25,839 nt of DNA from the IMG/VR virus record IMGVR_UViG_3300020057_000142, positions 1 to 25,839 of that record; one strand, written 5' to 3'. A model generated the notes under the pieces. The model saw only the letters and a program-made list of their open reading frames with translations. It was not told the origin of the DNA and did not search any database. Below, in pieces: positions 5,869-25,090 of this stretch. Position numbers and translations under genes: made by a program. The stretch is from a virus. Position 1 is the stretch's first letter, and each line of letters begins with the position of its first letter.

Positions 5869-5879
5869 CAACTAGACGC
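5869..5879 (-). promoter_or_regulatory. GCGTCTA element before tape measure (variant GCGTCTAGTTG)
   Basis: On the minus strand GCGTCTAGTTG ends five bases before the tape-measure ATG. It shares GCGTCTA with the other copies but differs at the 3' end. No Shine-Dalgarno is present between it and the start. Its function is unknown; a -10 element of a short-leader promoter is one option. Confidence 0.4.
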
Positions 5880-5896
5880 TCCGGCGGCGCGGGGGG

Positions 5897-6897
5897 CTAT
5901 TTGCCCTTCTTCGAGGCGGCGTCGATCTTGGCGTTGAGATGGCGGTTGGAGATGGCGTCCATCACCATCACCCGCCGCATCACCTCGTCGGGCTCGTCGA
6001 TCTCGTGGGCGTCCATGAGCCACTTGATGCCGGCGATGACCGCCTCGAGCCGCAACCCGAGCCTGTGCCCCGACATGGGGTTGGTGGTCTGTTGCTCGCG
6101 GACCAGGTTGTAGAGACGGAGGGTCTGGATGTTGATTCGGCCAAGCTCGGGCTTCGGGCAGGCCTCGCAGTCCGGCCGGGCCGCGTCCGGCAGGACCATG
6201 ATGCCAGGGCGGCCCGCGCGGGTGATCTCCACCGGGTCGTCGAGCATCTCGCCCCGAACGGTGATCGTCACCTTGTTGTTGGCGGCCCAGAGCGACTCGA
6301 CGTTCGCTATGCAGTCACGGCAGGTGGTTCGCCCGAACTCCCACTCTGACCAGATCCGGAGTTTCCCAAGGAGTCCTCCATCTTCTCCTCGGTCGACCGG
6401 CCCTCGCCGGTCTCGTCGTCGTCGTCCTCCTCATCCGGCCGGCCAAACCAGTACCCGTTGGTCTGCATGACCAGGTCGATCACACCGGGCAGGTTGCTCA
6501 GGCGGATCATCGCCTCGAGGTTGTCGGCGGTGAACCTGATGGCGTCGGTGGCCTTGATCTTGTCGAAGTCCACCTGCAGGCCCAGGGCGAAGGCGGCCGC
6601 GCCGTTGAGGCGCCAGTCGAGCAGGTATTCGGCGCACACGAGCCGGCGGACCCGTTCCTCGGCGATGTGCAGCGCTTTGACGCCCGACGCCTTGGCGGCC
6701 TTGCGCTCGGTGGCCGACGCGATCAGCTCGCGGTAATCGCGGGGGGTCGTGTACTTGAGCTTGAGGCGCAGGTCCGGGTCGCCCTTGTGGTCTTCCTTGG
6801 GATTCCGGAAGACGACGCCCTGTCCCTCGCGAGCGTCGAAGTCGAACCAGCGCGGCTCGGGGGTCTTGATGAGGTTCTTGAGGATCAGCTCGGCCAT
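5897..6897 (-). CDS. Frameshifted tail assembly chaperone (gpGT-like fusion)
   Basis: The product is predicted from a -1 ribosomal frameshift. Codons 1-179 come from the upstream gene (6897-6361), then 154 residues are read in the -1 frame from 6361 to the TAG at 5897, giving about 333 residues. The -1 frame is open all the way from the GGGAAAC heptamer. It adds a CRDC pair (fusion residues 193 and 196) and a CEAC pair (244 and 247), a plausible zinc site. It ends in a helical NIQTLRLYNLVREQQ region resembling second-ORF tail chaperones of siphophages. By analogy with lambda gpGT it would bind the tape measure and recruit tail-tube subunits. The in-frame GTG at 6271 would lack the first Cys pair, so independent initiation seems unlikely. 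Confidence 0.8.
6307..6897 (-). CDS. Tail assembly chaperone, unshifted form (gpG-like)
   Basis: This 196-residue protein sits between a tail-tube gene and the tape measure, the classic G position. It starts MAELILKNLIKT and has an acidic, low-complexity tail (DEEDDDDETGEG, then a Ser/Gly-rich end) after the frameshift site. The GGAG Shine-Dalgarno is nine bases before the ATG at 6897. In lambda, gpG is made in large excess over gpGT and coats the tape measure with it. I identified it by position, size and the slippery site rather than by strong sequence similarity. Confidence 0.8.
   Translation of the reverse strand: MAELILKNLIKTPEPRWFDFDAREGQGVVFRNPKEDHKGDPDLRLKLKYTTPRDYRELIASATERKAAKASGVKALHIAEERVRRLVCAEYLLDWRLNGAAAFALGLQVDFDKIKATDAIRFTADNLEAMIRLSNLPGVIDLVMQTNGYWFGRPDEEDDDDETGEGRSTEEKMEDSLGNSGSGQSGSSGEPPAVTA
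6361..6367 (-). other. Programmed -1 frameshift slippery heptamer GGGAAAC
   Basis: On the minus strand the zero frame reads TTG GGA AAC, so the heptamer has the canonical X XXY YYZ layout (G GGA AAC). A GGAGG lies seven bases upstream (6375-6379), placed to act as an internal Shine-Dalgarno stimulator. The zero frame stops at 6307 and the -1 frame is open to 5897. A weak GUUC/GAAC stem follows. Confidence 0.85.
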
Positions 6898-6930
6898 GAT
6901 GGTGGTCTCCAGGTCGGGAGCATAGCGGCA

Positions 6931-7968
6931 CTACGCCCGGCTCACAAGGCCCGTGGATACCTCAGACTCGTTGTTGCCAACGATCCAATGGAACTCATCG
7001 CCCATGGCGTCCACGATTGTCTGCCAGGTGAAGTCGACCCGGACGAGCCCGCGCCCGGCGATCTGGGGGATGGGGGTGCCCCGGATCTTCACCGCGGCGA
7101 ACTGGAACTCGGCGAAGACCCCGGACCCGGCCGCGGCGTGCTGGCCGCTGATGTGGATGGTCACGTCCCGGTCGGCCAGCCAGGTGGCGATCAGCTCCTC
7201 GTCTGCGTTCGAGAATAGCGCCTCCATCCGGCCGTTGATGACACGCCGCCCCTGGGGGACCATCGACCGCCGGCCGTTGCCCTCGATCTCGTAGCGTTCC
7301 GGCCCAAGGCCGTTCTCGATCGTGAACTCTGCGCTCAGGATGTTGCCCGGCGACTCCATGCTGTACCCGTTGCGGGTCATGTGCACAGTGAACACGCGGC
7401 TGGGCATCGAGAGATCGCCCGGCTCGTACCGCTCATCGTCCACCGCGGGGATGCTCGTAACGCGCTCCCGCCCGAGCATTTGGGCCCGCAGCTCGACGTT
7501 GCGGCCCCGGGCGAAGCGGAGCGTCAGGGCGTCGATCCGGCACCCCAGGAAGGTCTGGACGTACTGCCCGCCGCCCCGCTGGTACGGCGTGGCCTTGACC
7601 AGGCTGAGGCCCACAGGCAGCGTCCCCACCGTCCCGGTGTGCTCGCGCGTACTCTCGCCAACGACCGTGTTGATTTGCCCGCTGGTCGCGTGCTTGAGCA
7701 GGAGCGGGCCCCAGCCGTTGGCGCACAGCTCTGTGACGATCTCCCCCTCGATGACCGACCGCCCGAGCGGGAGGGAGCCGGCCGGCGCGTGCCCACGCTC
7801 GATGGAGTGGAAGACGCCGCCGCCGGCCTTGGACTCGCGGAGCGTCTCGCTGCTGACGGGGATCCGCACCGGATTGACCAGGAGCGTCTCGTAGACGCCG
7901 TAGGACACCTCCTCGGCCGCCCAGAGCCGAGCCTTGGTCGCACTCGCGTATCGGGTCGCGATGGACAC
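6931..7968 (-). CDS. Tail tube protein paralogue 2
   Basis: This 345-residue protein resembles phage tail-tube (Phage_tube-like) proteins. It sits directly before the chaperone pair, where the major tail tube gene usually is. It has clear relatedness to the product of 11210-12241: GEIVTELCANG then LLLKHATS, a LGCRID segment, INGRMEALF, and a C-terminal IAGRGLVRVDF strand. It starts at GTG 7968 (MSIATRYASA), 38 bases after the upstream stop, with only weak Shine-Dalgarno complementarity (GGA/AGG). It is probably the main tube subunit because of its place beside the G/GT genes (inference). Confidence 0.72.
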   Translation of the reverse strand: MSIATRYASATKARLWAAEEVSYGVYETLLVNPVRIPVSSETLRESKAGGGVFHSIERGHAPAGSLPLGRSVIEGEIVTELCANGWGPLLLKHATSGQINTVVGESTREHTGTVGTLPVGLSLVKATPYQRGGGQYVQTFLGCRIDALTLRFARGRNVELRAQMLGRERVTSIPAVDDERYEPGDLSMPSRVFTVHMTRNGYSMESPGNILSAEFTIENGLGPERYEIEGNGRRSMVPQGRRVINGRMEALFSNADEELIATWLADRDVTIHISGQHAAAGSGVFAEFQFAAVKIRGTPIPQIAGRGLVRVDFTWQTIVDAMGDEFHWIVGNNESEVSTGLVSRA

Positions 7969-8006
7969 CTAGTTCCAACCGCACGGAATGGAGTTGATAA
8001 TCAGCA

Positions 8007-8810
8007 TCAGCTGTCTCGGCCCACCGGAAGGGTCTGGGTTCGCGTTGCACTGTCGATTGTCGCCGTAACGGTGGCCACCGCCTGATGACCGTCGGCCAGG
8101 AGCACGCCGGTCGAATAGCTGTAGGAGTTCAGCGATCCGATTCGAGTCATGGTGGTTTCGGCGATGATCTCCGTATTCGTGTTGATGTTGTAGACCGAGA
8201 GATCGGGGACGCCGGTGACGGGCACGGGCTCCCGGTCCTTGTACCAGACCACAACGTAGCGGTTCGTGGCCCCGTTCTGGTAGAAGTAGAGGATCGCCTC
8301 ATACACCGGGCCGATCGTCGATTCGTTGGTGATCGCGCCGTTGACCAGCACGAGGTCGACCTCCGGCACGCCAGCGACGGTGGGAACCGCCACAGTCGTA
8401 CCGGCCCAGAGGGCCGTGCTGACCGGAGCGTTGAGCTGGAAGCGGTGGTGCACCGGGTCCAGGTTCGATGCCCCGGAGATACTGACCACCAGCTCCAGCG
8501 AGTTGACGACCGCGAACCGAGCGTTGGGGAGCTGGATTTCATACAGCCCAGGGTGGTTCGTCGCATCGACTTCCTGGAACCTGCACTTGTTTAGCGTGGG
8601 AGCCGCGAAGGTGCCGAGCGTGGCGATCGTCTCCACGTTGCTCGACCCCTGAGCGTAGACCGTCGCCGTGGCCTCGTTGTCGCAGACGGTGCCGATCCGC
8701 AGCCCCGTGCTGGTCGAGCTCAGGCCGGTGTATGCCGCTCCCGTCACCGCGTTCTTGAGGATCATACGGAAGAGGTTCGAGGTCTGTCCCCGAGTCCGTA
8801 GGTCAGCCAT
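8007..8810 (-). CDS. Tail fibre/baseplate appendage protein with BppU-like N-domain
   Basis: This 267-residue protein starts MADLRTRGQTSNLFRMILKN. It contains the pattern EVDATNHPGLYEIQLP at about residues 80-95, followed by SGASNLDP and HRFQL. I recognise this pattern from fibre or upper-baseplate proteins of many environmental phages. The first half would be a beta-sandwich attachment domain and the second half a beta-rich domain ending in TRTQTLPVGRDS. The ATG at 8810 overlaps the upstream stop by eight bases, so the two genes are coupled. Its likely role is a virion surface appendage. Local GC is lower than in the head genes. Confidence 0.6.
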   Translation of the reverse strand: MADLRTRGQTSNLFRMILKNAVTGAAYTGLSSTSTGLRIGTVCDNEATATVYAQGSSNVETIATLGTFAAPTLNKCRFQEVDATNHPGLYEIQLPNARFAVVNSLELVVSISGASNLDPVHHRFQLNAPVSTALWAGTTVAVPTVAGVPEVDLVLVNGAITNESTIGPVYEAILYFYQNGATNRYVVVWYKDREPVPVTGVPDLSVYNINTNTEIIAETTMTRIGSLNSYSYSTGVLLADGHQAVATVTATIDSATRTQTLPVGRDS

Positions 8811-9843
8811 TGTCGAATCCTCCTGCGAAGGCTGGGGCTACAACTGCGTCGATCACGAGGCCCATGAACAATGCGTCCGTGGCGACGTCGGTCCACCCAG
8901 TGGCATCGGTCCTGTGCGTCCGTCCGAAGGCGAAGCCGCAGTTCACTCGCAGCGCCGCCGTCACGAAGGGTATGATGTTCACTGTGACACTGTTGGCGGT
9001 CGTAGGCAGCACCGTGAGCCGGTACGTCCCCGCCGGGAGTGTCAGGGCAGAAGCCCAGAAGACCGTGATGTGGCCGTTTGCGCCCGTCCCGGCAAGCGCC
9101 ACCGCCGTGACGTTGGCGGACCCCAGCAGGGTGTTGGAAGCGTCGTAGAGTTTGACGGTGAAGTCGCCGGTCGTCGTTGCCCCGCGAGCGTCCAGCATCG
9201 CTCCGATGGTCCGAACCGCGTGGGGAAGGACGATCAGAACACCGTTCTCGTCCGGGTTGGATCCAGTGTTGTAGGTCAGGGTGCCCGCAGTGTTGACCAT
9301 GCCCCCGAACCCGTAGACCAGCGTCCCGTCGGAGTACTCGACCGCGATGCCGGGAGCGAAGTGGTCCACCTGATTGGAGCCTACGTTGTAGGCTCCGTGG
9401 GGCATGTAGTTGTATGCGGCATTGACCCCGCGGAAGACAGTACCAGACGTCGCACCCGACTCATACCGCACGACGGCAGCCAGGTGTTCGTTCACCGTCG
9501 GGGTGTAGTCATTGGTGAGCGTGACCCAGTTCCACCCCACCGAGAAGGACGACGTCGACGCACTTGCCGGGTCCGGCGGGTCAGAGCTCCCGCCCTTGAC
9601 CGTATTGTTGGGGTTGTTGAAGCCCGTGATGCCCTCCAGCCTGACCGAGAAGGTCGGGGTGCCGTTCTTTGTCGTGCAGTAGAACCCGATCCGACGGATC
9701 GCCTTGGCCTGATCGGCCAGGAAGAACGCTGCCGCAAAGTGAGTCGCCGACGAGAGGGTCGCGACGGCCGCGTTCGACAGCGAGTCGTGGCTGAACATAC
9801 CGTCGAAGCCGAAGAGCGTTCGGGAAGTTGGGATCGTGGGCAC
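8803..9843 (-). CDS. Beta-sandwich virion surface protein, unknown
   Basis: This 346-residue, Ser/Thr/Ala/Gly-rich protein has no signal peptide or transmembrane segment. Two beta-rich halves can be seen. The first has SVGWNWVTLTNDYTPTVNEH, which resembles carbohydrate-binding or jelly-roll modules. The second has VKLYDASNTLLGSANV and LTLPAGTYRLTVLP, the sort of strand pattern found in DUF4082-like and fibre modules. The start is GTG at 9843, with GGAGG four bases upstream. It lies between a beta-helix protein and a fibre-type protein, so an adsorption or tail-decoration role is likely. I cannot name a family. Confidence 0.65.
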   Translation of the reverse strand: MPTIPTSRTLFGFDGMFSHDSLSNAAVATLSSATHFAAAFFLADQAKAIRRIGFYCTTKNGTPTFSVRLEGITGFNNPNNTVKGGSSDPPDPASASTSSFSVGWNWVTLTNDYTPTVNEHLAAVVRYESGATSGTVFRGVNAAYNYMPHGAYNVGSNQVDHFAPGIAVEYSDGTLVYGFGGMVNTAGTLTYNTGSNPDENGVLIVLPHAVRTIGAMLDARGATTTGDFTVKLYDASNTLLGSANVTAVALAGTGANGHITVFWASALTLPAGTYRLTVLPTTANSVTVNIIPFVTAALRVNCGFAFGRTHRTDATGWTDVATDALFMGLVIDAVVAPAFAGGFDNG

Positions 9844-9861
9844 AGGACCTCCAGATCTATC

Positions 9862-11130
9862 TTAGGGACCCGAACCCGCAAACGTTCCGTCTGCGATGCG
9901 GGAGAGGCCCGAGCCGGTGTAGTTGTAGTTCCGGAACCCGGCCACGGTGTGGCCCGCAAGCGCAGATGAGACCCCAGCGAGGGTGGCGTTGCCGAGGGTG
10001 GAGTTACCGAGATTACAGGCCACGACGTCCACGTGGGTGGGTTCGGTGTTGTCCGCTCCGTTTCGGATGCGAATGAGTTTCGAGCCAGCGCCTCGGATCT
10101 TCTCCAGGGTACCCTGGAAGCGTGATCGGGACTCGGCCCAGTAAACAGGATTTTCGACGGTTTCGCCGGTGAAAAGTGTCGGCGCTGTGAACTGAGCGTT
10201 GCAGTTGACCCGAACCATCGACCAGTCGGTATAGCCCCCGCCCGCTTCTCCGTCGATCCACAGGCCCCGCGTGCGTCGGAGAATGCCCTCACATCGAACA
10301 TGCTCCACATGGATCTCTCCACCGTTGGAGTTGCCCTTCTTGATCCGCAAGATGCAGCCCGCGTCCGTGGTCGCTACGCCGTGCATCCACACGAAGGCCG
10401 CTTGGTCACACTGAAGAACCACCCCACTCTCAGGGCCCCCGAGTCCGATTGCCTGGAGCCGGTGTACCAGGGACTGGTTGTGGCCGAGCCGGATCATGCC
10501 ACCAATCGGCTCGCCGGATACTGAGTCGACACGCCCACAACCGAAGCCGTTGATGTTGATGTACTCGCTATCACTATCGAGGAGGGGCGCTGTAGTGTAC
10601 TGCCCCATGTAGATGCCGAAGTTCTCCACCCATGTGAAGTGGAGGTTCTCGAACCGCAGGCGGAAGGTGCCCGCTCCCGAGGTGCTCTTCGTTCCGAACA
10701 CGCCGAGGACGCGGTCGCTTGTGGATTGGCCCGCGACCGAGAAGCCGCTGTAGGTGCAGTCGCTGTTGTCTTCGAGGCGGAACACGCTCTCCGATGGGAA
10801 GCCAGCAGCGCAGACGATATGAGTGCTGTTGACGTAGGGGTTGTGCCCAACGCTGGTGGACTCACGCCGACCCGCTCCGATGAACCCACTCGACATCCGC
10901 CGCGTGACAAGGATCTGGGATTCGAGGTTGATGACCTGACCCGCTCGACCGCCCACGTGGGTGTACCTCTGCCGCGATGCCCCACCGCCGAGAGCAATAT
11001 CGTTGGCGACGGCAGTGAAGGCAGCCTGAAAGCGATCCTGGTCCGACGAACCCGCCACCTGATCGGTGAATAGGAGCTTGTGGTACTGGGGCTTCTGAGG
11101 GTATGATTGTGTGATTAGCAGGTCTGCCAA
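9862..11130 (-). CDS. Right-handed beta-helix tailspike-like protein
   Basis: The 422-residue product has a series of beta-helix rungs (FRLEDNSDCTYSGFSV, RLRFENLHFTWVENFGIYMG, GGEIHVEHVRCEGI, then SLVHRLQAIGLGG). This is typical of pectate-lyase-fold tailspikes or virion hydrolases. The first 40 residues (LLITQSYPQKPQYHKLLFTDQ) would be the attachment or capping region. The start is TTG at 11130, chosen because AGGAG lies six bases upstream and the protein reads ADLLITQS from there. No catalytic residues can be assigned by eye. It sits between two tail-tube paralogues, which is not the usual fibre position, so a side-of-tail decoration is possible. Confidence 0.65.
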   Translation of the reverse strand: MADLLITQSYPQKPQYHKLLFTDQVAGSSDQDRFQAAFTAVANDIALGGGASRQRYTHVGGRAGQVINLESQILVTRRMSSGFIGAGRRESTSVGHNPYVNSTHIVCAAGFPSESVFRLEDNSDCTYSGFSVAGQSTSDRVLGVFGTKSTSGAGTFRLRFENLHFTWVENFGIYMGQYTTAPLLDSDSEYININGFGCGRVDSVSGEPIGGMIRLGHNQSLVHRLQAIGLGGPESGVVLQCDQAAFVWMHGVATTDAGCILRIKKGNSNGGEIHVEHVRCEGILRRTRGLWIDGEAGGGYTDWSMVRVNCNAQFTAPTLFTGETVENPVYWAESRSRFQGTLEKIRGAGSKLIRIRNGADNTEPTHVDVVACNLGNSTLGNATLAGVSSALAGHTVAGFRNYNYTGSGLSRIADGTFAGSGP

Positions 11131-11209
11131 TGCGATCTCCTCAGTAGAGTCGAGTGAGGGTCATGCAGCCAATCATGCCCATCAGACACACGGTCAACGG
11201 GGCGCGATC

Positions 11210-12241
11210 TTAGGCCGCCGTCGAGATCGCGGGGTCCTGGTTGGTGATGACGAGCTGGATGTCGGTGCCGGAGTCCTCGTCGCGGAACGCCTCGAACGTC
11301 CCCGACAGGTTGAGCGGGCCGCGCCCGGACACCTGGGGGGTGTTGATCCGCAGCTTCATCGCCGGGATCGTGAAGTGCCACGAGTTGGCGCCGCGCGTCA
11401 GCACCAGCTCCATGCTGACCGTGGTGTTGTCCTTGGTCCGCTCATAGAGCTCGTAGGTGTCGTAGGTGAACATGACCTCGATATCGCCGTTGATCGACCG
11501 CTCATCCTCGGGGATGTCGGCCCGCAGTCCGGTGCCGTCGAGCACGAACTCCTCGGCCGACATGGCGTTGCTGCCGCGGATCGTCACGGAGCGGACGGTG
11601 GCCACCGCCACGCGCGAGCCATCGCCCTCGGGGTCGAGGTAGATGACGGCCTGGAAGGAGTTGAAGGGCTCGTTGTTGGTCGGGTAGGTCGGCGAGTCGT
11701 CCATCGAATCGTTGACCAGCGCCTCCTCGCGGAACAGGAGGCCGGCCCGGGCGGTGACGATGCCCTCGTTGGGGACGCCGATCTCCCACTCGTTCACGCG
11801 CCCGCCCAGGTACCGCAGGATGCGGGAGTTGCCGCTGGGGAAGGCAAAGTACTTCTCGACCGTCAGGCCCTCGTCCAGGTCCGGGGAGCCCTCCATCGAG
11901 TGCACGTAGGGGCCCGAGCCGCTGGTGCTGACGCCGTCGGAGTTGGTCAGGGCGTGCTTGAAGATCAGCGCCCACGGCCCGTTGGGCTGCAGCTCGCCGA
12001 TGACGTCGCCGCCCGGGCGGTGGTTGCCCGTCTGGGGGGCCGAGCGCATACGGTCGTCGCGGAGCAGGGTCGACTCGATGTTCGTGGGCGGATCGGCCAG
12101 CGTTTCGCTGCCGAAGTCCCACCCGAGCGCCTCCTGCTCGACCGACGGATCGCCCTCCTCGCTCAGGGTGCCCCAGCACGGCTCCTCCTGGACGATGATT
12201 CGGGCGCGAGATCCAGTTGCACGATCGGGCCGGCAAGTCAT
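11210..12241 (-). CDS. Tail tube protein paralogue 1
   Basis: The 343-residue protein is of tail-tube type and follows the tail terminator gene, as expected for a major tail protein. It shares an ordered set of motifs with the product of 6931-7968: IGELQPNG then LIFKHALT, a YLGGRVNEWEIG segment, SAEEFVLDG, SINGDIEVMF, and a C-terminal VSGRGPLNLSGTF. The ATG at 12241 has GGAGG seven bases upstream. A GCGTCTAAACA element lies 37 bases before the start in a 59-base intergenic gap. Which paralogue forms the bulk of the tube cannot be told from sequence. Confidence 0.75.
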   Translation of the reverse strand: MTCRPDRATGSRARIIVQEEPCWGTLSEEGDPSVEQEALGWDFGSETLADPPTNIESTLLRDDRMRSAPQTGNHRPGGDVIGELQPNGPWALIFKHALTNSDGVSTSGSGPYVHSMEGSPDLDEGLTVEKYFAFPSGNSRILRYLGGRVNEWEIGVPNEGIVTARAGLLFREEALVNDSMDDSPTYPTNNEPFNSFQAVIYLDPEGDGSRVAVATVRSVTIRGSNAMSAEEFVLDGTGLRADIPEDERSINGDIEVMFTYDTYELYERTKDNTTVSMELVLTRGANSWHFTIPAMKLRINTPQVSGRGPLNLSGTFEAFRDEDSGTDIQLVITNQDPAISTAA

Positions 12242-12277
12242 GGGGGTGCCTCCAGGTCGGCATCTCGCGCCGCCACC

Positions 12278-12288
12278 TGTTTAGACGC
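12278..12288 (-). promoter_or_regulatory. GCGTCTA element before tail tube gene (GCGTCTAAACA)
   Basis: This copy lies on the minus strand in the gap between the tail terminator stop (12301) and the tail-tube ATG (12241). It differs from the consensus GCGTCTAATCA by one base. If it acted as a -10 element, a leader of about 30 bases carrying the GGAGG site would result. A TTGACT lies upstream, but the 13-base spacing is too short for a standard -35. Confidence 0.45.
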
Positions 12289-12300
12289 ACCTCGGCCCAG

Positions 12301-12861: not shown

Positions 12862-12868
12862 GGCGACC

Positions 12869-13516: not shown

Positions 13517-13526
13517 AGCCCGCTCC

Positions 13527-13583
13527 TTACGGCCACCCCATCCACCCCTCACGCGTCTCAATGACGGTCTGGCCTGGCAGCAT
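13527..13583 (-). CDS. 18-codon mini-ORF between connector genes
   Basis: This short frame encodes MLPGQTVIETREGWMGWP. Its ATG overlaps the upstream stop as TGATG. Its TAA overlaps the AAGGAG Shine-Dalgarno of the next gene. The arrangement could be a translated coupling peptide that carries ribosomes from one connector gene to the next. No similarity is known to me, and it may be chance. Confidence 0.3.
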   Translation of the reverse strand: MLPGQTVIETREGWMGWP

Positions 13584-14302: not shown

Positions 14303-14305
14303 GCC

Positions 14306-14316
14306 TGATTAGACGC
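14306..14316 (-). promoter_or_regulatory. GCGTCTA element, consensus copy before head completion gene
   Basis: The exact 11-mer GCGTCTAATCA lies three bases before the ATG at 14302, on the coding strand. The TAA inside it also ends the small frame at 14309-14428. No Shine-Dalgarno is present, so the start looks leaderless or element-dependent (inference). Confidence 0.5.
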
Positions 14317-16120: not shown

Positions 16121-16132
16121 CCCGACAGAATA

Positions 16133-16167
16133 GCAAGGGGCGGGGGTTATGAGCCCCCGCCCCTTGC
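16133..16167 (-). terminator. Strong hairpin terminator after major capsid gene
   Basis: A perfect 14-bp inverted repeat (16133-16146 with 16154-16167) with a 7-base loop lies in the 68-base gap after the capsid stop. On the minus strand it is followed by TATTCTGT, a short T-rich tail. It should reduce read-through from capsid into the glycosyltransferase genes. Confidence 0.8.
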
Positions 16168-16188
16168 CGCCTCAGTCAGGACGATCTA

Positions 16189-17475
16189 TCAGGAGCCGGC
16201 GCCCAGCCGCAGGATGCGGAACTGCTGGGGACGCACGCCCTTGAAGGCGAACGCGAGGGCCCGGGACTTCTTGGTGAGCAGCGTGTCGGGGTCCTGGAAC
16301 GCGGCGGTGAGGACCGACGCCAGGCCGAACGGCGAGAAGATCGCGCCCGCGTAAAACGGGTTCATGTTGTCGACGTGGCCGAAGAGCGCCAGGTTGGGGT
16401 CGATCTGCGGGTCGTGCAGATACAGGACGCCGTCGATCGACGTCCCCATCTGCAGGATGTTGCCGCTCATCCGGCGCTGGTCGAACATCTGATCGCTGAC
16501 CTTCAGGCCGAAGGCCATCGGGGTCTTGGCGATCTGCTTGGCCACGTTCGTGCCGACCACCGCCCAGTTGGGCTGGCGGAAGATGTCGTGGGCCATCTCG
16601 ACCTGGATCGCGGTGATCGCGACCTCGAGCAGACGGCGGTCGTAGGCGGCCTGCTCGCTTGGCGCGTAGGTGGAGTAGTTGCCGCCGTCGTCCGGGTCCC
16701 AGTAGACGTCGCCGCGGGTGTTGGTGCCAGCGAAGGTCACGAGGCGATCGACCACCGTGCGGTCAACCTCCCACGCCAGCTCATCGGCGGTAATCATGTC
16801 GCCGATGGTCAGGATGTCCATGGAGTGCTGCGAACGCAGCGCCACGTCGACCTGGTGCGAGAACTGGTGCATCAGGGCGCGCCACTCGACCTCGACCAGA
16901 TCCTTGGTCAGCTCCATGCCCACGGCGCGGATCTGGTCGCCCTCGTTCTCCCACAAGGAGTACTCGGGGTCGTGGGTGTCCAGGTCAGCCAGGCTGCGGC
17001 CGGCGGTGCCGGACGTCGTCGGGCCATCGTCCTTGGCCAGGCGGCGCATGTAGAAGACGTAGCCGGAGGGCTGCGTGAAGGGCTGCAGCGACGTCAGCCG
17101 CGACGCGATGAGGCGCGGGTACACCTCAAGGGAGACGTGGATCATCTGGGTGATGAAGTCCGTCACCTGGGCCTGCAGCGTGGACGACGCCAGCGGGGCC
17201 TCGGCGGCGAACGCCAGACCGGCCGCGGCGGCCATGGGGTTCGAGCGCTGGACCACGGCGTTGGCGACGTACGACGCCTGCTCGTAGGCGGCGATCGCGG
17301 ATCGGAGCATCGCGTGGCCGCGGTACCGGTCCGGGCTCGCGGCGGCGAACCGGCCCTCCATCGCCTTGTCGAACTCGGGGAAGTGGTCCTTGATGATCGG
17401 ACCGAGGGCTCGCCGTGCATCGCAGAGCTTCCCGCGACCCGTCAGCGGCACCGGAACGGCAAAGGGATTGATCAT
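16189..17475 (-). CDS. Major capsid protein, T4 gp23-like
   Basis: The 428-residue protein directly follows the protease-scaffold gene. It carries SLQPFTQPSGYVFYMR at residues 129-144, the counterpart of the gp23 V-P-x-x-P-x-G-hydrophobic motif. Further family-like parts include VGMELTKDLVEVEWRALMHQF and the C-terminal NPFYAGAIFSPF then AFKGVRPQQFRILRLG. It would form the HK97-fold shell. The N-terminal 90 residues are helical and Ala-rich, as in a cleaved delta domain, with an AAE/A candidate cleavage at E92 (inference). The ATG has GAGG about five bases upstream. The stop is TGA followed at once by an in-frame TAG, then a strong terminator. Confidence 0.85.
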   Translation of the reverse strand: MINPFAVPVPLTGRGKLCDARRALGPIIKDHFPEFDKAMEGRFAAASPDRYRGHAMLRSAIAAYEQASYVANAVVQRSNPMAAAAGLAFAAEAPLASSTLQAQVTDFITQMIHVSLEVYPRLIASRLTSLQPFTQPSGYVFYMRRLAKDDGPTTSGTAGRSLADLDTHDPEYSLWENEGDQIRAVGMELTKDLVEVEWRALMHQFSHQVDVALRSQHSMDILTIGDMITADELAWEVDRTVVDRLVTFAGTNTRGDVYWDPDDGGNYSTYAPSEQAAYDRRLLEVAITAIQVEMAHDIFRQPNWAVVGTNVAKQIAKTPMAFGLKVSDQMFDQRRMSGNILQMGTSIDGVLYLHDPQIDPNLALFGHVDNMNPFYAGAIFSPFGLASVLTAAFQDPDTLLTKKSRALAFAFKGVRPQQFRILRLGAGS

Positions 17476-17579
17476 TGGGACCTCGTGTGTCTTGCCCGTC
17501 GCCCGGTCGGGCCGGCTGGGTGCGGTTCAGGGAAGAGCCCTGCGGTGTGCGGCACCGCAAAGCTCCGGGGGTGTCGGGT

Positions 17580-17595
17580 GCCGTCTTTAGACGGC
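17580..17595 (-). other. Hairpin GCCGTC-UAAA-GACGGC over protease stop codon
   Basis: A perfect 6-bp stem with a four-base loop contains the TAA stop of the protease-scaffold gene in its loop (GTC TAA A). It also holds a partial GCGTCTA-like core (CGTCTAAAGA). It starts the 111-base gap before the capsid gene, which contains a second small stem (GCGGTG/CACCGC). No T-run follows, so it is not a clear terminator. Confidence 0.45.
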
Positions 17596-18339
17596 GAAGC
17601 TGTGGCCGCGGAGCGCCATCGCTCCGAGGGCATTTTCGGTGCCGACCTGGTACCCGCCGCCGCCGCTGCCCGCGGCCGGGTTCTGCGGGTTGGCGTCGAG
17701 CAGGCCGTTGAGCAGGTTCTCCGTGGTCATGTGGGGGTTGCCGCCCCCGCCGCCGCCCGTGCCGCGGGCGACGCCCGCCGGCAACCCCAAGCCCGCCGCC
17801 TCCAGGTCCGCCAGCTCGGTCCGAGCGGCCTCGAGCGCCTTGTTGGTGTCCTCGATGCCCAGGCGGGCGACCCGCTTGAGGATGAGGTTCTTGGCCGGGC
17901 TGCCCTGGTACTGGGTCGCGACCGCCTCGAGCGCGGTCCGCACGCGGCCGATCTTGAGGCCGGTCTCGACCTGGTCGCCCAGAGTCTTCTTCTCGGCCTC
18001 CAGCGTGGCGACGCGGGTGGTGAGGGCCTTCACCTCGCCCTCGGCCGTGGCGATCTTGGCCGCGGCATGGGCGTCGGTGATCTGCTCATTGACGATGCCC
18101 AGCGTCTTCTGCGCGGTCTTGAGGCCGCTCAGCGCCTCGGTGGCGATCTTGAGATTGGTTTGGGTCGCGGCCAGCGCCTCCTGGACCGTCTTCAGCTCCG
18201 CGGCATGCTTGGTGGCGGCTGCCTCGTTCGCGGCCTTCACCTTCGCGTCGGCGTCGCCCAGCGCCAGAGCGCGCCCTTCGGCGATCATGAGGTCGTACAG
18301 GGCCGGGTGGGCTGCCTTGAGTTCGGCGGGAGTCTTCAT
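17587..18339 (-). CDS. Nested scaffold protein from internal start
   Basis: Within the protease-scaffold gene an in-frame ATG at 18339 (MKTPAELKAAHPALYDLM) has AGGAG at 18348-18352, eight bases upstream. This is a better ribosome site than that of the full-length gene. It falls exactly at the border between protease and coiled coil and would give a 250-residue scaffold in excess over protease. Lambda Nu3 inside C is the established precedent. A GCGTCTAATCA element lies 84 bases upstream and could drive it separately. Confidence 0.6.
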   Translation of the reverse strand: MKTPAELKAAHPALYDLMIAEGRALALGDADAKVKAANEAAATKHAAELKTVQEALAATQTNLKIATEALSGLKTAQKTLGIVNEQITDAHAAAKIATAEGEVKALTTRVATLEAEKKTLGDQVETGLKIGRVRTALEAVATQYQGSPAKNLILKRVARLGIEDTNKALEAARTELADLEAAGLGLPAGVARGTGGGGGGNPHMTTENLLNGLLDANPQNPAAGSGGGGYQVGTENALGAMALRGHSFAV

Positions 18340-18990
18340 TTCGTCCGCTCCTGGAGTTGCTTGCTCCGTCACTGTCGCGCCGTCCGCACCGGCGAATCCG
18401 GGCTCACTGACGATGTCGTACGTGATTAGACGCATCGCCTCAGCAACGTCGACAAAAGTGTTGTCAGGGATCTTGTACTCGAGCCGCTCTTGCTGCGTGG
18501 GATCACGCCAGCGCACGGCAGCGCGATGGCTGATTCCTGGGTTGCCTTCCACGGCGAGAATCGCCATGATCTTGCGGCCTTTTTCGTTGTCCATGACGTC
18601 GACGGTCACACGCGCGAGCGTCTCGCCGACCATCTCCACCGAGTCAACCTTGATCGCGGCATCGTCGAGCGTGACGAGCAGCGCGTTGTGGTCCCACGGC
18701 GCGGGATGGTCGAGGCCGCCGAAGACCTGGTTCTTCTCGCAGCGCCCGTTGAGCCCCGCGATGGCCATGGCCACAACGGCCTGCGGGTAGATGCGGCGAT
18801 TGACGTTCAGGACGTCGGCCGTCTCGAACTCGTAGATGAGTCGGCCGAGCCGACCCTTCGTGCCCTTGTCGCCCATCTTCTCCAGCGCGACAAACTTCGC
18901 GCGCACGTCGAAGTGCTCCGACGCGGTTACTTCGGTGCCGCGCGGCGTGGGCTTGGTCGGGGTTGTCACGCGCTTGAGAAGGCCTGGCAT
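17587..18990 (-). CDS. Prohead protease (T4 gp21-like) fused to scaffold
   Basis: This 467-residue protein has an N-terminal serine protease domain of the herpesvirus-like prohead type. FGGLDHP supplies the His (residue 95) and NPGISHRA the Ser (154), matching the GELxHP and GIS motifs of gp21. From about residue 218 it turns into a long Ala/Lys/Glu coiled coil (residues about 218-385), then a Gly-rich linker (GTGGGGGGNP) and a short C-terminal region, as expected for a scaffold. An in-frame ATG at 19014 exists, but it abuts a terminator hairpin and has no Shine-Dalgarno. I prefer 18990 because the GCGTCTACTCA element ends three bases upstream, as at 14302. The fusion recalls lambda C/Nu3. 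Confidence 0.78.
   Translation of the reverse strand: MPGLLKRVTTPTKPTPRGTEVTASEHFDVRAKFVALEKMGDKGTKGRLGRLIYEFETADVLNVNRRIYPQAVVAMAIAGLNGRCEKNQVFGGLDHPAPWDHNALLVTLDDAAIKVDSVEMVGETLARVTVDVMDNEKGRKIMAILAVEGNPGISHRAAVRWRDPTQQERLEYKIPDNTFVDVAEAMRLITYDIVSEPGFAGADGATVTEQATPGADEMKTPAELKAAHPALYDLMIAEGRALALGDADAKVKAANEAAATKHAAELKTVQEALAATQTNLKIATEALSGLKTAQKTLGIVNEQITDAHAAAKIATAEGEVKALTTRVATLEAEKKTLGDQVETGLKIGRVRTALEAVATQYQGSPAKNLILKRVARLGIEDTNKALEAARTELADLEAAGLGLPAGVARGTGGGGGGNPHMTTENLLNGLLDANPQNPAAGSGGGGYQVGTENALGAMALRGHSFAV
18423..18433 (-). promoter_or_regulatory. GCGTCTA element, consensus copy inside protease gene
   Basis: The exact 11-mer GCGTCTAATCA occurs within the protease coding region (encoding M-R-L-I-T), followed by C as in the copy at 23464. 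It lies 84 bases before the internal scaffold ATG. The CTA codon it contains is out of keeping with the GC-ending codons around it. Confidence 0.45.
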
Positions 18991-18993
18991 ATC

Positions 18994-19004
18994 TGAGTAG
19001 ACGC
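18994..19004 (-). promoter_or_regulatory. GCGTCTA element before protease start (GCGTCTACTCA)
   Basis: One mismatch to the consensus. It ends three bases before the ATG at 18990, the same distance as the copy at 14306-14316, and lies just downstream of the hairpin at 19019-19038. This is what a new transcription start after a terminator would look like, but no -35 is recognisable. Confidence 0.48.
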
Positions 19005-19018
19005 ACGGGCGCATGAAG

Positions 19019-19038
19019 AAGGCCCCTTTCGGGGCCTT
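19019..19038 (-). terminator. Hairpin terminator after membrane-protein cassette
   Basis: A perfect 8-bp stem AAGGCCCC/GGGGCCTT closes on a GAAA tetraloop, followed on the minus strand by CTTC. The T tail is weak, but the stem plus GNRA loop is stable. It separates the membrane gene (ending at 19117) from the protease gene. Confidence 0.65.
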
Positions 19039-19116
19039 GCTGAGCGGCCGTCGTCGTGTCCCGCCCTCTCCGCCGGGGACCGCCGCGCTCCCGCGGTGCC
19101 AAATGGTAGATTTCGT

Positions 19117-19899: not shown

Positions 19900-20126
19900 G
19901 GGAGTGCTCCTTGAATCCTGAGCCGGTACGAGTACGTCTCCGGCTGTGCCGGCGCTGCCGGAAGTGCTGGGGCGGTCGTGGCCGTGATCCTCGTGATGTC
20001 GAGGGGACGAACCTCGGTCGTCGTCGAGCGCACTCTCGACTCCGAAGGATCCACTACGGTTTTGGACGCTCCCGAGCAGCCCGCGAGGGCCGCGAACACG
20101 ACCGCGAGCAGCATCAGAGTCTTCAT
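19830..20126 (-). CDS. Small lipoprotein A
   Basis: A 98-residue protein with MKTLMLLAVVFAALAGC: a basic start, hydrophobic core and ALAGC lipobox, so Cys17 should be lipidated after signal peptidase II cleavage. Ser follows the Cys, which in enterobacteria allows sorting to the outer membrane. The mature part is Thr/Pro/Ala-rich, ending in a low-complexity Ser/Pro stretch that overlaps the next gene. GGAG, overlapping the upstream stop, lies eight bases before the ATG. It could be a spanin-like or exclusion lipoprotein; the family is unknown. Confidence 0.65.
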   Translation of the reverse strand: MKTLMLLAVVFAALAGCSGASKTVVDPSESRVRSTTTEVRPLDITRITATTAPALPAAPAQPETYSYRLRIQGALPCAAPPSSSSSPPASDSPSPNPP

Positions 20127-20129
20127 TGT

Positions 20130-20333
20130 TCAGTCTCCGTAATGGTGGTGGTCGTACCTGTGGTCGTACCTCCTGTTCTCGGGAAGGTACCTGAACTGGC
20201 GGTACGGGTTGTCGTTATACCCAGACGGCTGGCCATCCGCACGCCTGGTCTTGTCGGTCGCGCATCCGGCGAGGAGCGCGGCGCACACCACGAACAACAG
20301 GAACCCGCGCCCACGCGCCATCGACTTGGCCAT
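20130..20333 (-). CDS. Small lipoprotein B, His/Tyr-rich
   Basis: A 67-residue protein with an arginine-containing signal (MAKSMARGRGFLLFVVCAALLAGC) and a clear LLAGC lipobox at Cys24. The mature chain of 44 residues is polar and ends in a cluster of His, Tyr, Arg and Asp (RYDHRYDHHHYGD), which might bind metal or polyanions. The ATG is preceded by AGGAG that overlaps the stop of the minor head gene, so expression is coupled to head genes. Size and lipobox recall Rz1-type outer spanins, but no inner spanin partner is visible. Confidence 0.65.
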   Translation of the reverse strand: MAKSMARGRGFLLFVVCAALLAGCATDKTRRADGQPSGYNDNPYRQFRYLPENRRYDHRYDHHHYGD

Positions 20334-20335
20334 TG

Positions 20336-21433
20336 CTATCTCCTGAACACCAGGGCACGACCCTGGGGGCCCGTGCGGTACATCCGCTTCGGGTCATCGT
20401 CCAAGATGATAACACCGTCCGGCCCAGTTGCAGTCACCAATCCGCTGTCCCCGCGGTCATTTACAACCACGCCCACCGCTACGCCCAGCAGCGTGGTGTC
20501 GATAACCTCGACCAGATGCAACCCCATGGTCTCGGCCGCGCGGACCTGGGCGAGGATCTCGCCTTGGGTGGGCGTGAGCCGGACCCGCTGCCCGAGCCCA
20601 CGTGCCAGGGCCTCGATCTCCCGCCAGACATCGGCTGGGTCGCCGAAGCCCGCCCCCAGCGCCGCGCGGCGCAGGCTCCACGCATAAATCTCGGCGAGCT
20701 GCTGGTAGGACTGGGCTTGGGCCTGGTTCACAGGCGAGGCTGGATCCACGTCGAACGCCCCCAGCGCGAAGACCTCGACGCCGATCAGGTTCCGCGGCGT
20801 AGCCGTGACGCGCCCCCTCGCCACCAGGTAGCACTTGCAGTTCGCCAAACACGAACTCGTGCCATCTCGGGGCACGGCCGGCAGCTCGTTCCCGCCAGCG
20901 CCGGGCATGGTGTACGGGCTGCCCCGGGCAAACTCGATGCAGGTGGAGCAGCTCTCGGCGACAGTCCGCACCCACTCGATCTGAGACCCGGTCGGGAGCA
21001 TCGACACCATGCCGCGCCAGAGCGCGTCGTCCACCATGCCGGCGTACAGGGCGGCCCGGCCAGCGCCCTGGGCCTCGCCGATCCACCCGCCGAGGTAGTC
21101 CATGTGCTTCTTGACCAGGGCCGCCTGGGTGGCCCTCTGGGACGCCGTGAGCGCCCACTGGCTGTTACGGGGGACGCCGGCGATGATGAAGCCCTGCTGC
21201 ATCGCGGCCGTGATCGCCGCGCTGAAGGTGCTCCGGGCAGTCTCGAGCGCCAGCCGGGCGCTGAACTTGCCCGTCGCGACGCCCTTCACCAGGTTCTCGA
21301 CGGCGGAGGAGACCGCGAACTTGGTGCGGTCCATCAGCGTGGCGCCCCGCCGCTTCTCGAGCGCGGTGGGCATCTCCCGCTCGATGGCGTCGATGCGGGC
21401 CCGGTCTTCGGCCGTCTGCGTCAGAGGAGTCAC
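20336..21433 (-). CDS. MuF-like minor head / morphogenesis protein
   Basis: This 365-residue protein starts at GTG 21433, which overlaps the portal stop as GTGA. Its N-terminal two thirds are helical. It then has ESCSTCIEFARG (Cys 162 and 165) and GTSSCLANCKCYL (Cys 195, 199 and 201), resembling the C-x-x-C and CRC clusters of Mu F/SPP1 gp7-type minor head proteins. These sit inside the capsid next to the portal. The C-terminal 100 residues contain a beta-rich part (LGVAVGVVVNDRGDSGLVTATG) and are not typical of the family. The frame also happens to stay open upstream across the portal gene, but that part is not coding. Confidence 0.75.
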   Translation of the reverse strand: MTPLTQTAEDRARIDAIEREMPTALEKRRGATLMDRTKFAVSSAVENLVKGVATGKFSARLALETARSTFSAAITAAMQQGFIIAGVPRNSQWALTASQRATQAALVKKHMDYLGGWIGEAQGAGRAALYAGMVDDALWRGMVSMLPTGSQIEWVRTVAESCSTCIEFARGSPYTMPGAGGNELPAVPRDGTSSCLANCKCYLVARGRVTATPRNLIGVEVFALGAFDVDPASPVNQAQAQSYQQLAEIYAWSLRRAALGAGFGDPADVWREIEALARGLGQRVRLTPTQGEILAQVRAAETMGLHLVEVIDTTLLGVAVGVVVNDRGDSGLVTATGPDGVIILDDDPKRMYRTGPQGRALVFRR

Positions 21434-23106
21434 CTGCCCACCTCGAACATGCCGGACCGGAGCATGTCCAGGGTCTCCAGCGAGCTGGACAGGGCGAGCT
21501 GGATCTCCGGCGACTTCTGCCCGAGCAGGGCCAAGATGTTCTCCCGGACCAGCGGCCCGATCTCGCTGTGGAGCTGGGCGAGCACCGACTCGACAGCGCG
21601 CCGGCCGACACCCTTGGGCTTCTCGCCGCCCTCGATCTGCATGTCGTCGAACAGGTCGGCGAGTTCGCCCTCGTCGAGCCCTTCCAGCTCGTCGCTCATG
21701 TTCAGGAACGTCGAGAGGACCCACCGCGGGTGCTTCTCCAGCTTCATGCCAGCCTGGCGGAGGGTGAGGATGACACCGGCCTGGAGCGCCCGGATCTGGG
21801 CCTGCAGGAGGTCGTCGCGGGCCCCGATCTGGGGCGAGATGATCTCCACCGGGTACTTCAGCGGGTCGTACCCGCCGGCCAGCATGTCCACCCAGACCAT
21901 GTGCTGATAGCCGGCCGCGCCGTACATCTGGATGTGCCGCGCGGTGCGGGCGAAGTTGATGTCGATCTGGGACAGGTTGCTCCGGCCGCCCTGGCTCCGC
22001 TCGTGGCCCAGGTACTCCGGGGGCACGCCCAGCGCGCCGAAGTAGACGCGGAACAGCAGCTCCACGTCCTGCACGCGGGCGAGGTTGGTGTCGCCGTCGA
22101 TCGTGTCGAGGTCGTAAGCGAGCCCCTCGCCGGAGGCGATGAAGAAGTCCTCGTCCGGGGTGGGCGGCTTCTTGTACGAGTCCTGGGCGGATCCGATGCC
22201 GGTGGTGGAGCGCGTGACCGACTGCTTCCACATCGCCAGCCGCTTCATGATCTGCTTGGGGTCGCCCTTGAGGTCCGAGACGTCCACCTTCCAGCGGTAG
22301 CGCATCGCCGCGCGGGTGAGGCGGGCCAGCACCATCGAGTCGAGCACGCCGTGGACCTTGAGCCCGATCGCCCCGAATGGCTTGAGGATGCTGCGGCCGT
22401 ACAGGAGCGTCTCGGTGGCCGAGACACCGCCGTTGGACCACAGGGCGAAGTGGGGCATCCGCCAGATCGGGAAGGTCTTGGCCTTGGCGTCGAGCTGGAG
22501 GCGGACGCCGTTGCTGGGCGGGCTCGTCTGGGTGATCTGCTGGGCCCAGTACGCCTCGGGGGTCCAGCGGCCGGTGGAGTCGAAGTTGCGGAAGATCGTC
22601 GCCGGCGGGATGGGGCGGAGGTGCGCCACGCCCAGCCGATTGTCCGCCATCATGGCCAGCACGTTCTCCGGCATGAAGGACCCGTACTTGCACATCGCCC
22701 GCACCGTCTGGAACGACGACTCACGGATGATGGTCTCGAGCCGGCGGAACCTGGCCTTCAGTTCCTCGGGGTACTCGTCGGGCGGGTTGACCATCCGCAC
22801 GGCGTAGGTCCGCGTCCCGCCGCCCGAGAGGTCGCCCGTGACGGCCATGGTGGCGAAGGCGTCCAGTGCCCGCGGCACGTCGGAGATGTTGGTCTCCAGG
22901 AAGTCGTAGTACTGCATCTCGCGCACCCGGTCCATCGGGACCTGCACGGTGTTGAACCATGGGGTGAGCTTGGGGTCGCCCGCCGTGGACACGCCGCCGG
23001 CTGGGCCGCCCACCAGCGGCGACGGCTCGGGCGTCGAGTACCGCCCGGAGAGCAGATCGCCCAGGCTTCCGACCGCGGACTTCGTGATGGAGACGATTCG
23101 GCTCAT
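21430..23106 (-). CDS. Portal protein, T4 gp20-like
   Basis: The 558-residue product lies right after the large terminase gene (ATG two bases after its TGA). Family-like parts are VQVPMDRVREMQYYDFLE, a RALDAFATMAVTGDLSGGG segment, DEDFFIASGEGLAYDLDTI, and the block RVYFGALGVPPEYLGHE then a Q-x-D-x-x-FA segment. The last corresponds to the stem/wing region of gp20-type portals. It would form the dodecameric DNA channel at one capsid vertex. The C-terminus (DMQIEGGEKPKGVGRRAVESVL onward) is helical, like the barrel of long portals. Confidence 0.82.
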   Translation of the reverse strand: MSRIVSITKSAVGSLGDLLSGRYSTPEPSPLVGGPAGGVSTAGDPKLTPWFNTVQVPMDRVREMQYYDFLETNISDVPRALDAFATMAVTGDLSGGGTRTYAVRMVNPPDEYPEELKARFRRLETIIRESSFQTVRAMCKYGSFMPENVLAMMADNRLGVAHLRPIPPATIFRNFDSTGRWTPEAYWAQQITQTSPPSNGVRLQLDAKAKTFPIWRMPHFALWSNGGVSATETLLYGRSILKPFGAIGLKVHGVLDSMVLARLTRAAMRYRWKVDVSDLKGDPKQIMKRLAMWKQSVTRSTTGIGSAQDSYKKPPTPDEDFFIASGEGLAYDLDTIDGDTNLARVQDVELLFRVYFGALGVPPEYLGHERSQGGRSNLSQIDINFARTARHIQMYGAAGYQHMVWVDMLAGGYDPLKYPVEIISPQIGARDDLLQAQIRALQAGVILTLRQAGMKLEKHPRWVLSTFLNMSDELEGLDEGELADLFDDMQIEGGEKPKGVGRRAVESVLAQLHSEIGPLVRENILALLGQKSPEIQLALSSSLETLDMLRSGMFEVGR

Positions 23107-23107
23107 T

Positions 23108-25090
23108 TCATCCTCGCAGGATCATCATGCCAGCGTCGTCGCGTCGGGGGTCGATGAGCTTGGGGGCGCTCTCGGTGTACACGTTCATCATCGGGCGGAT
23201 CTCGGAGTAGTCGAGCACGGTGTCGAATCCGAGCACGAGGCCGGCCAGCATGTCGTAGACGGCCGCGTGGAGCTGGTGGTCTGGGATGCCCTCCCAGGTG
23301 AAACGCTCGTTGCCCTGGTCGTTGATGACCAGCTTCCGCACCGGCCGGCTCATCTCATCAAAGAGCCGTCCGTCCACCGCCACCGTCCAATCCTCGAACC
23401 ACTCGATCTGGTTGGTCAGGTGCCACTCGTAGATCGTGTCGATCGCCACTGTCCGGTGCACTGTGATTAGACGCGGCGGGTCCAGGCGGCCGTCGCCTGC
23501 CTCGGAGACGACGACCATCTTGTGCTGGTCGTTCGTGGCGTATTTGCACCGGACGATCGGGATCTTCAGCTCGGCCATGGCGGCTTCCTGCACGCTCATG
23601 GCGAACTTCGCCTCGGGCTGGTGGTCGATCACCCCACCCACGACCCGGAATCGCTTGAGAACCTGGATCACCTCGTCCACCCCACCCGCGAGCCGGCCGG
23701 CGTGGACCTTGATCTGCTTCCCGTCGTCCCATCGGCTGATCTGGTAGTCGAGCCACGGGCGGTTGACGTCGATCCCGATGGTGGTCGGCTGCTCGGATGA
23801 GGAGACCATGCGCCGGCCCTTGGCGGTGCACCGCTCGAACATCTTGCGGTTGATGCGCAGCGTGCCGCCGGAGAATGGCCGCCCCAGGTCCATGTTGTTG
23901 AACTGCTGGAGCTTGGACGGGTTCCCCAGGCTCTTGCTGAAGGTGTCGATCAGGGTGTCCATCGTCGGCCCGATGCGGGTTGACAGGGCCTCCGTCCAGT
24001 ACGACCGGATCTTGCGGCCGGGGCGCTGGGGGATCCAGAGGCCGGGGGCAAAGCGGTTCATCGGCCGCCCGCACTTCGGGTAGCGGCAGCATGGCCGGAT
24101 GTCCCGCGGGGAGCCGGGCGACCAGTCCTTGTCGCGGACGTCGAAGGTCATAATGCGGCCCGAGTCGTCGATCCTGGTAATCACGACGTTGTCGTACCAG
24201 TCGATGATCTGCCGCTCGCCGCAGTGCTCGCAGTCGTGGAAGTAGCGGTGCTGGTCGCCGGCGAGGAACTCCGCGTGGATGTTGTCGTTGCCCGGGGCGC
24301 CGGCGTTCAGCTCGGAGCCCTCGACGGTGGGGGTTGAAATCTCGTCGCTGAGCTTGTAGTCCGACGCGTTCATGCGCTTCGGGTACATGGGCAGGTTCGT
24401 GCGATTGCAGAAGTCCCGCTCGTCGATGTGCATGCAGTCCGCGGTGAACGACGTCAGCTCGTCCTCGGAGTTGGCCGTGACGATGTAGAGCTTCCCGTGC
24501 GGCCCGAACCGCTTGAAGGACGTCGCGTCCGTCGCGTCGGCGATCTCCTGAAGCTCCTGGTAGTAGGGGGTGTTCTTGATCGTGGGGTTGAGCTTGCCGT
24601 TCACCAGCTCGATCACCTTGGCGTGCTTGGGCATGACCCAGCCCACCGCCAGCCCCAGCGAGCACTGGGCGAGGGTCTTCACGATCTCGTAGGTGGTCTT
24701 GCCGCGCTGGGCGGGGGCGATGATCCGCATGTCGGGGGAGGGATCGGCGTAAATCTGCTCCCACTGGGGGTCCAGCACGATCGGCTGGCCCTTGTCGGTG
24801 ATGTGGACATTCAGGGCCAGGTGCATCGTCCGGCGTGCCACCTGCGCGGCCATGGCCCTACGCACGAGCACGTCGCGGCGGATGGGAGTCTGCACCTTCC
24901 GCCCGTCAGGCCTGGTGACGAGGATGGTCACGATCTCGTTGGGTTGGCGATCCGGTTTGGGCTTGGGACCGACCACGTCACGGATCCTCCGTCTCGTCTT
25001 CGTCAGCGCCTTCATCATCGGCTGGCGGGGGATCTTCGGGGGAGTCGGCAGGATCGTCCTGAAAAACCTCTGGTCCGGGTGCTGATTCAT
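23108..25090 (-). CDS. Terminase large subunit (lambda gpA-like, GpA family)
   Basis: This 660-residue protein has an ATPase domain with Walker A APAQRGKTT at residues 125-133 and Walker B CMHIDE at 219-224. A zinc-type cluster follows (CEHC at 287-290; CC and C at 334-340). The nuclease region has GIDV (Asp441) and GGVIDHQP (Asp489). This is the layout of the GpA family of packaging motors. The ATG at 25090 has GAGG six bases upstream but overlaps the small subunit gene by 113 bases. Starts at 25018 or 25015 (MMKALTK) would shorten the overlap. An exact GCGTCTAATCA lies inside the gene at 23464. Confidence 0.92.
   Translation of the reverse strand: MNQHPDQRFFRTILPTPPKIPRQPMMKALTKTRRRIRDVVGPKPKPDRQPNEIVTILVTRPDGRKVQTPIRRDVLVRRAMAAQVARRTMHLALNVHITDKGQPIVLDPQWEQIYADPSPDMRIIAPAQRGKTTYEIVKTLAQCSLGLAVGWVMPKHAKVIELVNGKLNPTIKNTPYYQELQEIADATDATSFKRFGPHGKLYIVTANSEDELTSFTADCMHIDERDFCNRTNLPMYPKRMNASDYKLSDEISTPTVEGSELNAGAPGNDNIHAEFLAGDQHRYFHDCEHCGERQIIDWYDNVVITRIDDSGRIMTFDVRDKDWSPGSPRDIRPCCRYPKCGRPMNRFAPGLWIPQRPGRKIRSYWTEALSTRIGPTMDTLIDTFSKSLGNPSKLQQFNNMDLGRPFSGGTLRINRKMFERCTAKGRRMVSSSEQPTTIGIDVNRPWLDYQISRWDDGKQIKVHAGRLAGGVDEVIQVLKRFRVVGGVIDHQPEAKFAMSVQEAAMAELKIPIVRCKYATNDQHKMVVVSEAGDGRLDPPRLITVHRTVAIDTIYEWHLTNQIEWFEDWTVAVDGRLFDEMSRPVRKLVINDQGNERFTWEGIPDHQLHAAVYDMLAGLVLGFDTVLDYSEIRPMMNVYTESAPKLIDPRRDDAGMMILRG
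23464..23474 (-). promoter_or_regulatory. GCGTCTA element, consensus copy inside large terminase gene
   Basis: The exact 11-mer GCGTCTAATCA, followed by C, lies within the coding region (P-R-L-I-T) about 358 bases before the portal ATG. It could mark an internal transcription start for the portal block or an RNA-processing site; nothing else around it stands out. Confidence 0.38.

Follow-up and report, generated by a model that had tools for sequence, protein, structure and literature searches.

Introduction

Late genes of phage T4 are preceded by promoters that lack a -35 and consist of a short -10 element alone, spanning about -13 to -6 (PMC1524935), and phages phiEco32 and 7-11 carry a motif of about 10 bp that occurs in few copies, is read by a phage-encoded sigma and serves middle and late genes (PMC4331800). 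These are the closest kinds to the element described here, GCGTCTANT with the core GCGTCTAAT, which would work alike but differs in sequence, and no counterpart of their factors was recognized. The T4-type promoters, in which the octamer TATAAATA is used by the sigma gp55 with gp33 and the clamp gp45, resemble our element in their -10-only architecture and, should RNA begin at the A of the ATG, in register, but the core here is not the T4 octamer and several of the starts appear leaderless. The phiEco32/7-11 promoters (tgTGATGTtata) are similar in motif length and copy number; they differ in sequence, and the element here abuts start codons.

Other start-proximal signals share single properties with the element. 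Sigma70 promoters carry TTGACA at -35 and TATAAT, and sigma70 needs A(-11), the second base of the -10; the -35 of ECF promoters is of AAC type. The element has no -35, and C is invariant at position 2 of its TCTAAT among sites that were themselves chosen by CGTCTA. Streptomyces sigmaE promoters include CGTCTA -10s (PMC6767563), and ECF factors recognize bases -12 and -11 (sigmaA numbering) in the unwound state (PMC6411747). Our element shares the CGTCTA but not the AAC-type -35 located 16-19 nt upstream in ECF promoters. The start-associated sequences (SAS) of cluster K mycobacteriophages contain AGGAG in the ribosome-binding position (PMC3203893). Like the element, SAS are short repeats directly before start codons in mostly one orientation, but they are 13-mers with the AGGAG Shine-Dalgarno core, which the element lacks, and the element is also found within genes.

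The window analyzed here is the full-length 25,839-base IMG/VR virus record IMGVR_UViG_3300020057_000142, in which the recognized genes (terminase, portal, protease/scaffold, major head, tail and tape-measure) all lie on the minus strand (Table 1). Matches to named phages were distant and confined to the terminase, portal and tail, and GTDB genomes contained no relative, so no host could be assigned from there. Literature searched for the string gave no description of GCGTCTAAT as a promoter, the titles among the matches listed being unrelated. We estimate a probability of about 0.8 that GCGTCTANT is the single DNA element of late promoters in this phage group, a reading that covers two lineages and would provide a testable late-promoter code for uncultivated phages with no close cultured relative.

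Results and discussion

Copies of the element in the window

All copies of the 11-mer GCGTCTAATCA listed in the preliminary description were located, three of them exact, two with one mismatch and one reading GCGTCTAGTTG, at the distances from downstream ATGs that it had given (Table 1). The plus strand, said to be free of copies, has just one match, with two mismatches (13415). The copies at 14306, 18994 and 5869 adjoin ATGs; the exact copies at 23464 and 18423 are intragenic and both translate to Arg-Leu-Ile-Thr (RLIT).

Table 1. Genes, element copies and a hairpin of the window, with matching sites in the relative G006
Feature	Position	Strand	Remarks
Terminase large subunit	23108..25090	-	PHROG 675, E 3.6e-54
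Head maturation protease with nested scaffold (internal in-frame ATG 18339)	17587..18990	-	PHROG 207, E 1e-21 on ORF 17587-19014
Major head protein	16189..17475	-	PHROG 138, E 6.3e-19
Tail-tube / minor tail protein	11210..12241	-	PHROG 290, E 1.6e-39
Tape-measure gene	2141..5863	-	PHROG tape-measure families at C-terminus; blastn match to G006 tape-measure region
Element, exact GCGTCTAATCA	14306..14316	-	Intergenic, 3 nt before ATG 14302 (239-aa gene)
Element GCGTCTACTCA, one mismatch	18994..19004	-	3 nt before ATG 18990 (protease)
Element GCGTCTAGTTG	5869..5879	-	5 nt before ATG 5863 (tape-measure gene)
Element, exact GCGTCTAATCA	18423..18433	-	Inside protease gene (ATG CGT CTA ATC ACG), 84 nt upstream of in-frame scaffold ATG 18339
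Element, exact GCGTCTAATCA	23464..23474	-	Inside terminase (CCG CGT CTA ATC ACA), ~360 nt upstream of portal ATG 23106
Element variant GCGTCTAAACA, one mismatch	12278..12288	-	37 nt upstream of ATG 12241 (tail-tube gene)
Terminator-like hairpin GGCCCCGAAAGGGGCC, then TTCTT	19021..19036	-	Ends 18 nt upstream of CGTCTA of protease element
239-aa gene start orthologue	G006 104102	+	tCGTCTAATTAaccATG
Protease start orthologue	G006 99638	+	GCGTCTAATAGctcATG
Tape-measure orthologue	G006 2306	+	GCGTCTAATCAagcATG before 1216-aa tape-measure gene
Protease-internal site	G006 100215	+	Same CGT CTA codons as window 18423
Terminase-internal site	G006 95259	+	Identical word, same codons, in island of 24 identical bases
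Tail-tube site	G006 106022	+	GCGTCTAATTA upstream of orthologous gene 106081

The protease gene has a further ATG upstream, at 19014; its G006 orthologue begins at an ATG 3 nt downstream of its own element. The tail-tube gene has a GGAGG Shine-Dalgarno, and its orthologue belongs to a G006 protein set with a Phage_tube_2 match.

Two further words were set aside. A partial copy had been proposed at 17580, where we find Val-stop codons within a hairpin rather than the element, G006 likewise having Val-stop there. The hairpin itself, at 17577-17593, is perfect (GCCGTCT-AA-AGACGGC) and lies over the stop codon of the protease/scaffold gene. The word GCGTCTACT in the portal gene (22041-22049) consists of Val-Tyr codons and is not conserved in the G006 portal.

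That an exact 11-mer occurs three times had been presented as not expected by chance, which is too strong for a word picked post hoc: 25 different 11-mers recur at least three times on the coding strand, against an average of 9.6 in third-order random sequences. Such commonplace recurrence favors a reading in which chance and coding bias, in GC-rich genes read from one strand, produce Arg-Leu (CGT CTA) and Val-Tyr or Val-stop (GTC TAN) words, as do the two exact copies in frame as RLIT and the many bare CGTCTA words that are Val-Tyr codons. Because the bare recurrence is weak and two of the exact copies are intragenic, we sought independent sequence, and the significance of the element rests on these held-out data.

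The element in held-out sequence

Near-identical contigs (99.7-99.96%) carry the phage 16 kb further upstream of the window. This extension contains GCGTCTAATCGcacATG, GCGTCTAATGG 21 nt before a gene, and GCGTCTACTCC in a single-strand-binding-protein gene, 26 nt before the next start. On the opposite side the window is extended by contig G005 (98-99%), where GCGTCTAATCC lies 28 nt upstream of the start codon (ATG) of a gene orthologous to the 791-aa tail gene of G006.

We scanned IMG/VR with the element plus ATG (GCGTCTAATCANNNATG) and obtained 67 loci, mostly incidental internal words, among which G005 and the distant relative G006 were brought out. G006 comprises 107,112 bases and encodes a terminase 55% identical to that of the window, with terminase, head and portal proteins together at 51-56%. 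Its record is classed as linear; the two ends overlap by 127 bases (1-127 and 106986-107112), and since another locus, L043, spans this overlap, G006 is a complete, circularly assembled genome. Alignments of terminase, capsid and portal revealed no third lineage.

Expected counts were obtained by shuffling synonymous codons within genes and resampling intergenic DNA. In the window GCGTCTANT was observed 6 times against 0.21 expected and the core GCGTCTAAT 3 times against 0.01; the held-out upstream extension has 3 copies of GCGTCTANT (0.03 expected), and G006 has 11 copies of GCGTCTANT (0.87 expected) and 8 of GCGTCTAAT (0.19 expected). These held-out counts refute chance and coding bias, to which we assign a practically negligible probability. 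They also illustrate how a motif noticed by eye in a single contig can be confirmed in relatives that played no part in its discovery.

Both phages show the same strand bias. The core GCGTCTAAT occurs 14 times on the forward strand of the two lineages and never on the reverse, and its one-mismatch variants 12 times and never, respectively, with 7 of the 12 differing at the eighth base. Within G006, all 14 GCGTCTA words lie on the plus strand, and the element copies are confined to the structural arm (80-107 and 0-30 kb), which argues for late timing. Intragenic copies of GCGTCTATT at G006 13762 and 92972 fall within chance expectation and were set aside.

Conservation of position between the two phages

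Between the window and G006, which share 42-56% protein identity, six element positions match. Three are gene starts (tape-measure, protease and 239-aa), and the others are a site before the internal scaffold start, one inside the terminase and one before the tail-tube gene (Table 1). Closer inspection of these sites provides further grounds against coding bias. The copy at the start of the 239-aa gene, whose product is 45% identical to its G006 counterpart, lies between genes in the window lineage, one strain of which has a 67-base indel just upstream, but reads Ser-Asn-stop in G006; protein coding therefore does not explain this copy. At both RLIT sites CGT CTA is used in both phages, despite CTA making up only 10 of the 721 Leu codons of the window. 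Promoter copies inside the terminase and protease genes would thus appear to be kept through synonymous codons, although intragenic copies could also serve something besides transcription start.

Core, spacing and upstream context

Across 21 sites only nine bases, G-C-G-T-C-T-A-(A)-T, carry information, and upstream of them there is no signal; the sites were chosen by CGTCTA, so the unbiased positions are only the G, A and T outside it. The informative core is accordingly the 9-bp GCGTCTAAT, and the trailing CA of the 11-mer is not conserved. No 5- or 6-mer at any fixed spacing rose above the random control as a shared -35.

An element copy lies within 12 nt of 8 of the 130 called starts, as opposed to 9 of 4358 other ATG or GTG codons (Fisher p 8e-9). 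Two of the eight (G006 29828 and 99652) were re-set to the ATG after the element, 99652 being backed by orthology; with the window and both re-set starts left out, the association persists in held-out data (p = 0.003). The gap from TCTANT to the start codon is exactly 5 nt in 7 of the 8 starts and 7 nt in the other, a spacing that would fit a leaderless promoter, and a Shine-Dalgarno-like word precedes one of the eight compared to 72 of 122 other starts. The preliminary description had suggested that the element may be the -10 of promoters whose leaders are short or absent, without a common -35, and had named a phage-specific factor as an option. The -10 reading is supported: the spacing puts the expected +1 at the A of the ATG, and in the further phage sequence and the relative the matches lie on one strand, concentrated at late-gene starts, with fixed spacing.

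Strand specificity, the fixed 5-nt gap and the missing Shine-Dalgarno could also reflect a signal in the mRNA, either a processing site yielding leaderless 5' ends or a translation enhancer before starts that lack a Shine-Dalgarno. However, four elements are preceded by a terminator-like hairpin whose end lies 18-31 bases away (0.24 expected). Where a terminator comes immediately before the element, RNA synthesis has to begin anew, a point against RNA processing. In addition, some conserved copies are located within the terminase or at distances of 37-360 nt from the gene that follows, and we consider an mRNA-level signal improbable.

The strongest hairpin of the terminator scan (-32.5 kcal/mol) is at 16133-16167 of the window, between the head-protein gene and a gene starting at ATG 16120 (TTGCTATTCTGTCGGGATG), which has neither a Shine-Dalgarno nor the element.

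A candidate mechanism and its reader

From the sequence patterns we infer promoter action, the position of +1, late timing and a dedicated factor. An RNA polymerase with a dedicated specificity factor would bind the element on the coding strand without a sequence-specific -35, and RNA would start about 6 nt after the last T of the element. For the protease, 239-aa and tape-measure genes this would place +1 on the first base of the ATG and give leaderless mRNAs with no Shine-Dalgarno; such an apparent fusion of promoter and start codon at several virion genes is rare. For the scaffold and tail tube, RNA would start upstream, sometimes inside the preceding gene, with an ordinary leader.

The main mechanistic alternative is that an ECF (group IV) sigma factor, from the host or hidden in the phage, uses the element as its -10 without contact to a -35. 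The word CGTCTA serves as a -10 of ECF promoters, and if transcription began at the A of the ATG, its GTC would occupy -12 to -10, close to the bases that ECF region 2 reads; in addition, having C as the second base of TCTAAT speaks against sigma70. An ECF promoter should nonetheless have an AAC-type -35, of which none is shared, and no Sigma70_r2 (PF04542) or r4_2 (PF08281) protein passes the cut-off in either lineage. We therefore regard an ECF factor as rather unlikely.

Profiles for sigma70 regions 2 and 4, ECF factors, gp55 and T7-like RNA polymerase gave no match above cut-off, the complete G006 included; the phiEco32/7-11 systems, in contrast, have a sigma of their own. The gp55 profiles phrog_234 and phrog_12791 matched T4 as a positive control but not G000, G001, G005 or the complete G006, although a strongly diverged homologue could escape them. 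A PF00940 search had no match, but neither did any control genome, making this a weak negative, and Pfam scans of selected unannotated G006 proteins returned no factor. A DnaN sliding clamp homologue is present in the window lineage (G001 C1:22538-23203, E 6e-14), while G006 has no bacterial-type sliding clamp by PF00712, which would set G006 apart from the T4 system. The complete 107-kb genome yielded no recognizable member of a known factor family, which hints at a specificity factor awaiting discovery. We tentatively propose, as a possibility with the odds somewhat against it, that an undescribed factor outside the recognized sigma, gp55 and T7-like polymerase families might read only the 9-bp GCGTCTAAT and start late virion mRNAs exactly at the AUG.

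Weak matches to PF04545 (sigma region 4) in both lineages were rejected as sigma factors, these proteins having a LexA-type winged helix instead. The orthologous LexA-like proteins (113-120 aa) are encoded in the tail module (G006 17629-17970; G005 7641-8003), and in G005 a sigma70-like promoter, TTGACA-N17-TACGCT, lies just upstream of the gene.

A LexA-like protein common to both lineages could suggest that the element is a repressor or activator operator, like the stoperators of mycobacteriophages, rather than a core promoter, as could its short, asymmetric, single-orientation and partly intragenic copies. The constant 5-nt distance to the ATG, however, fits a -10 from which RNA begins at the A; LexA sites are palindromic, which the element is not, and copies of the element occur only in the structural arm of G006. 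An operator has little probability in our estimation, and both this and RNA processing, alternatives offered by the preliminary description, are less likely than a late promoter.

Additional repeats in the extended phage sequence

Two further repeats were observed in the extended sequence. In the tail-fibre-like genes of the extension, the reverse strand of contig G001 carries two copies of one stretch at a spacing of 731 bases (~8310-8410 and ~9041-9140). A 46-bp sequence between two tail genes of the window (7970-8015) is repeated at 97.8% identity in the upstream extension (L005 2384-2429) and is possibly a recombination joint.
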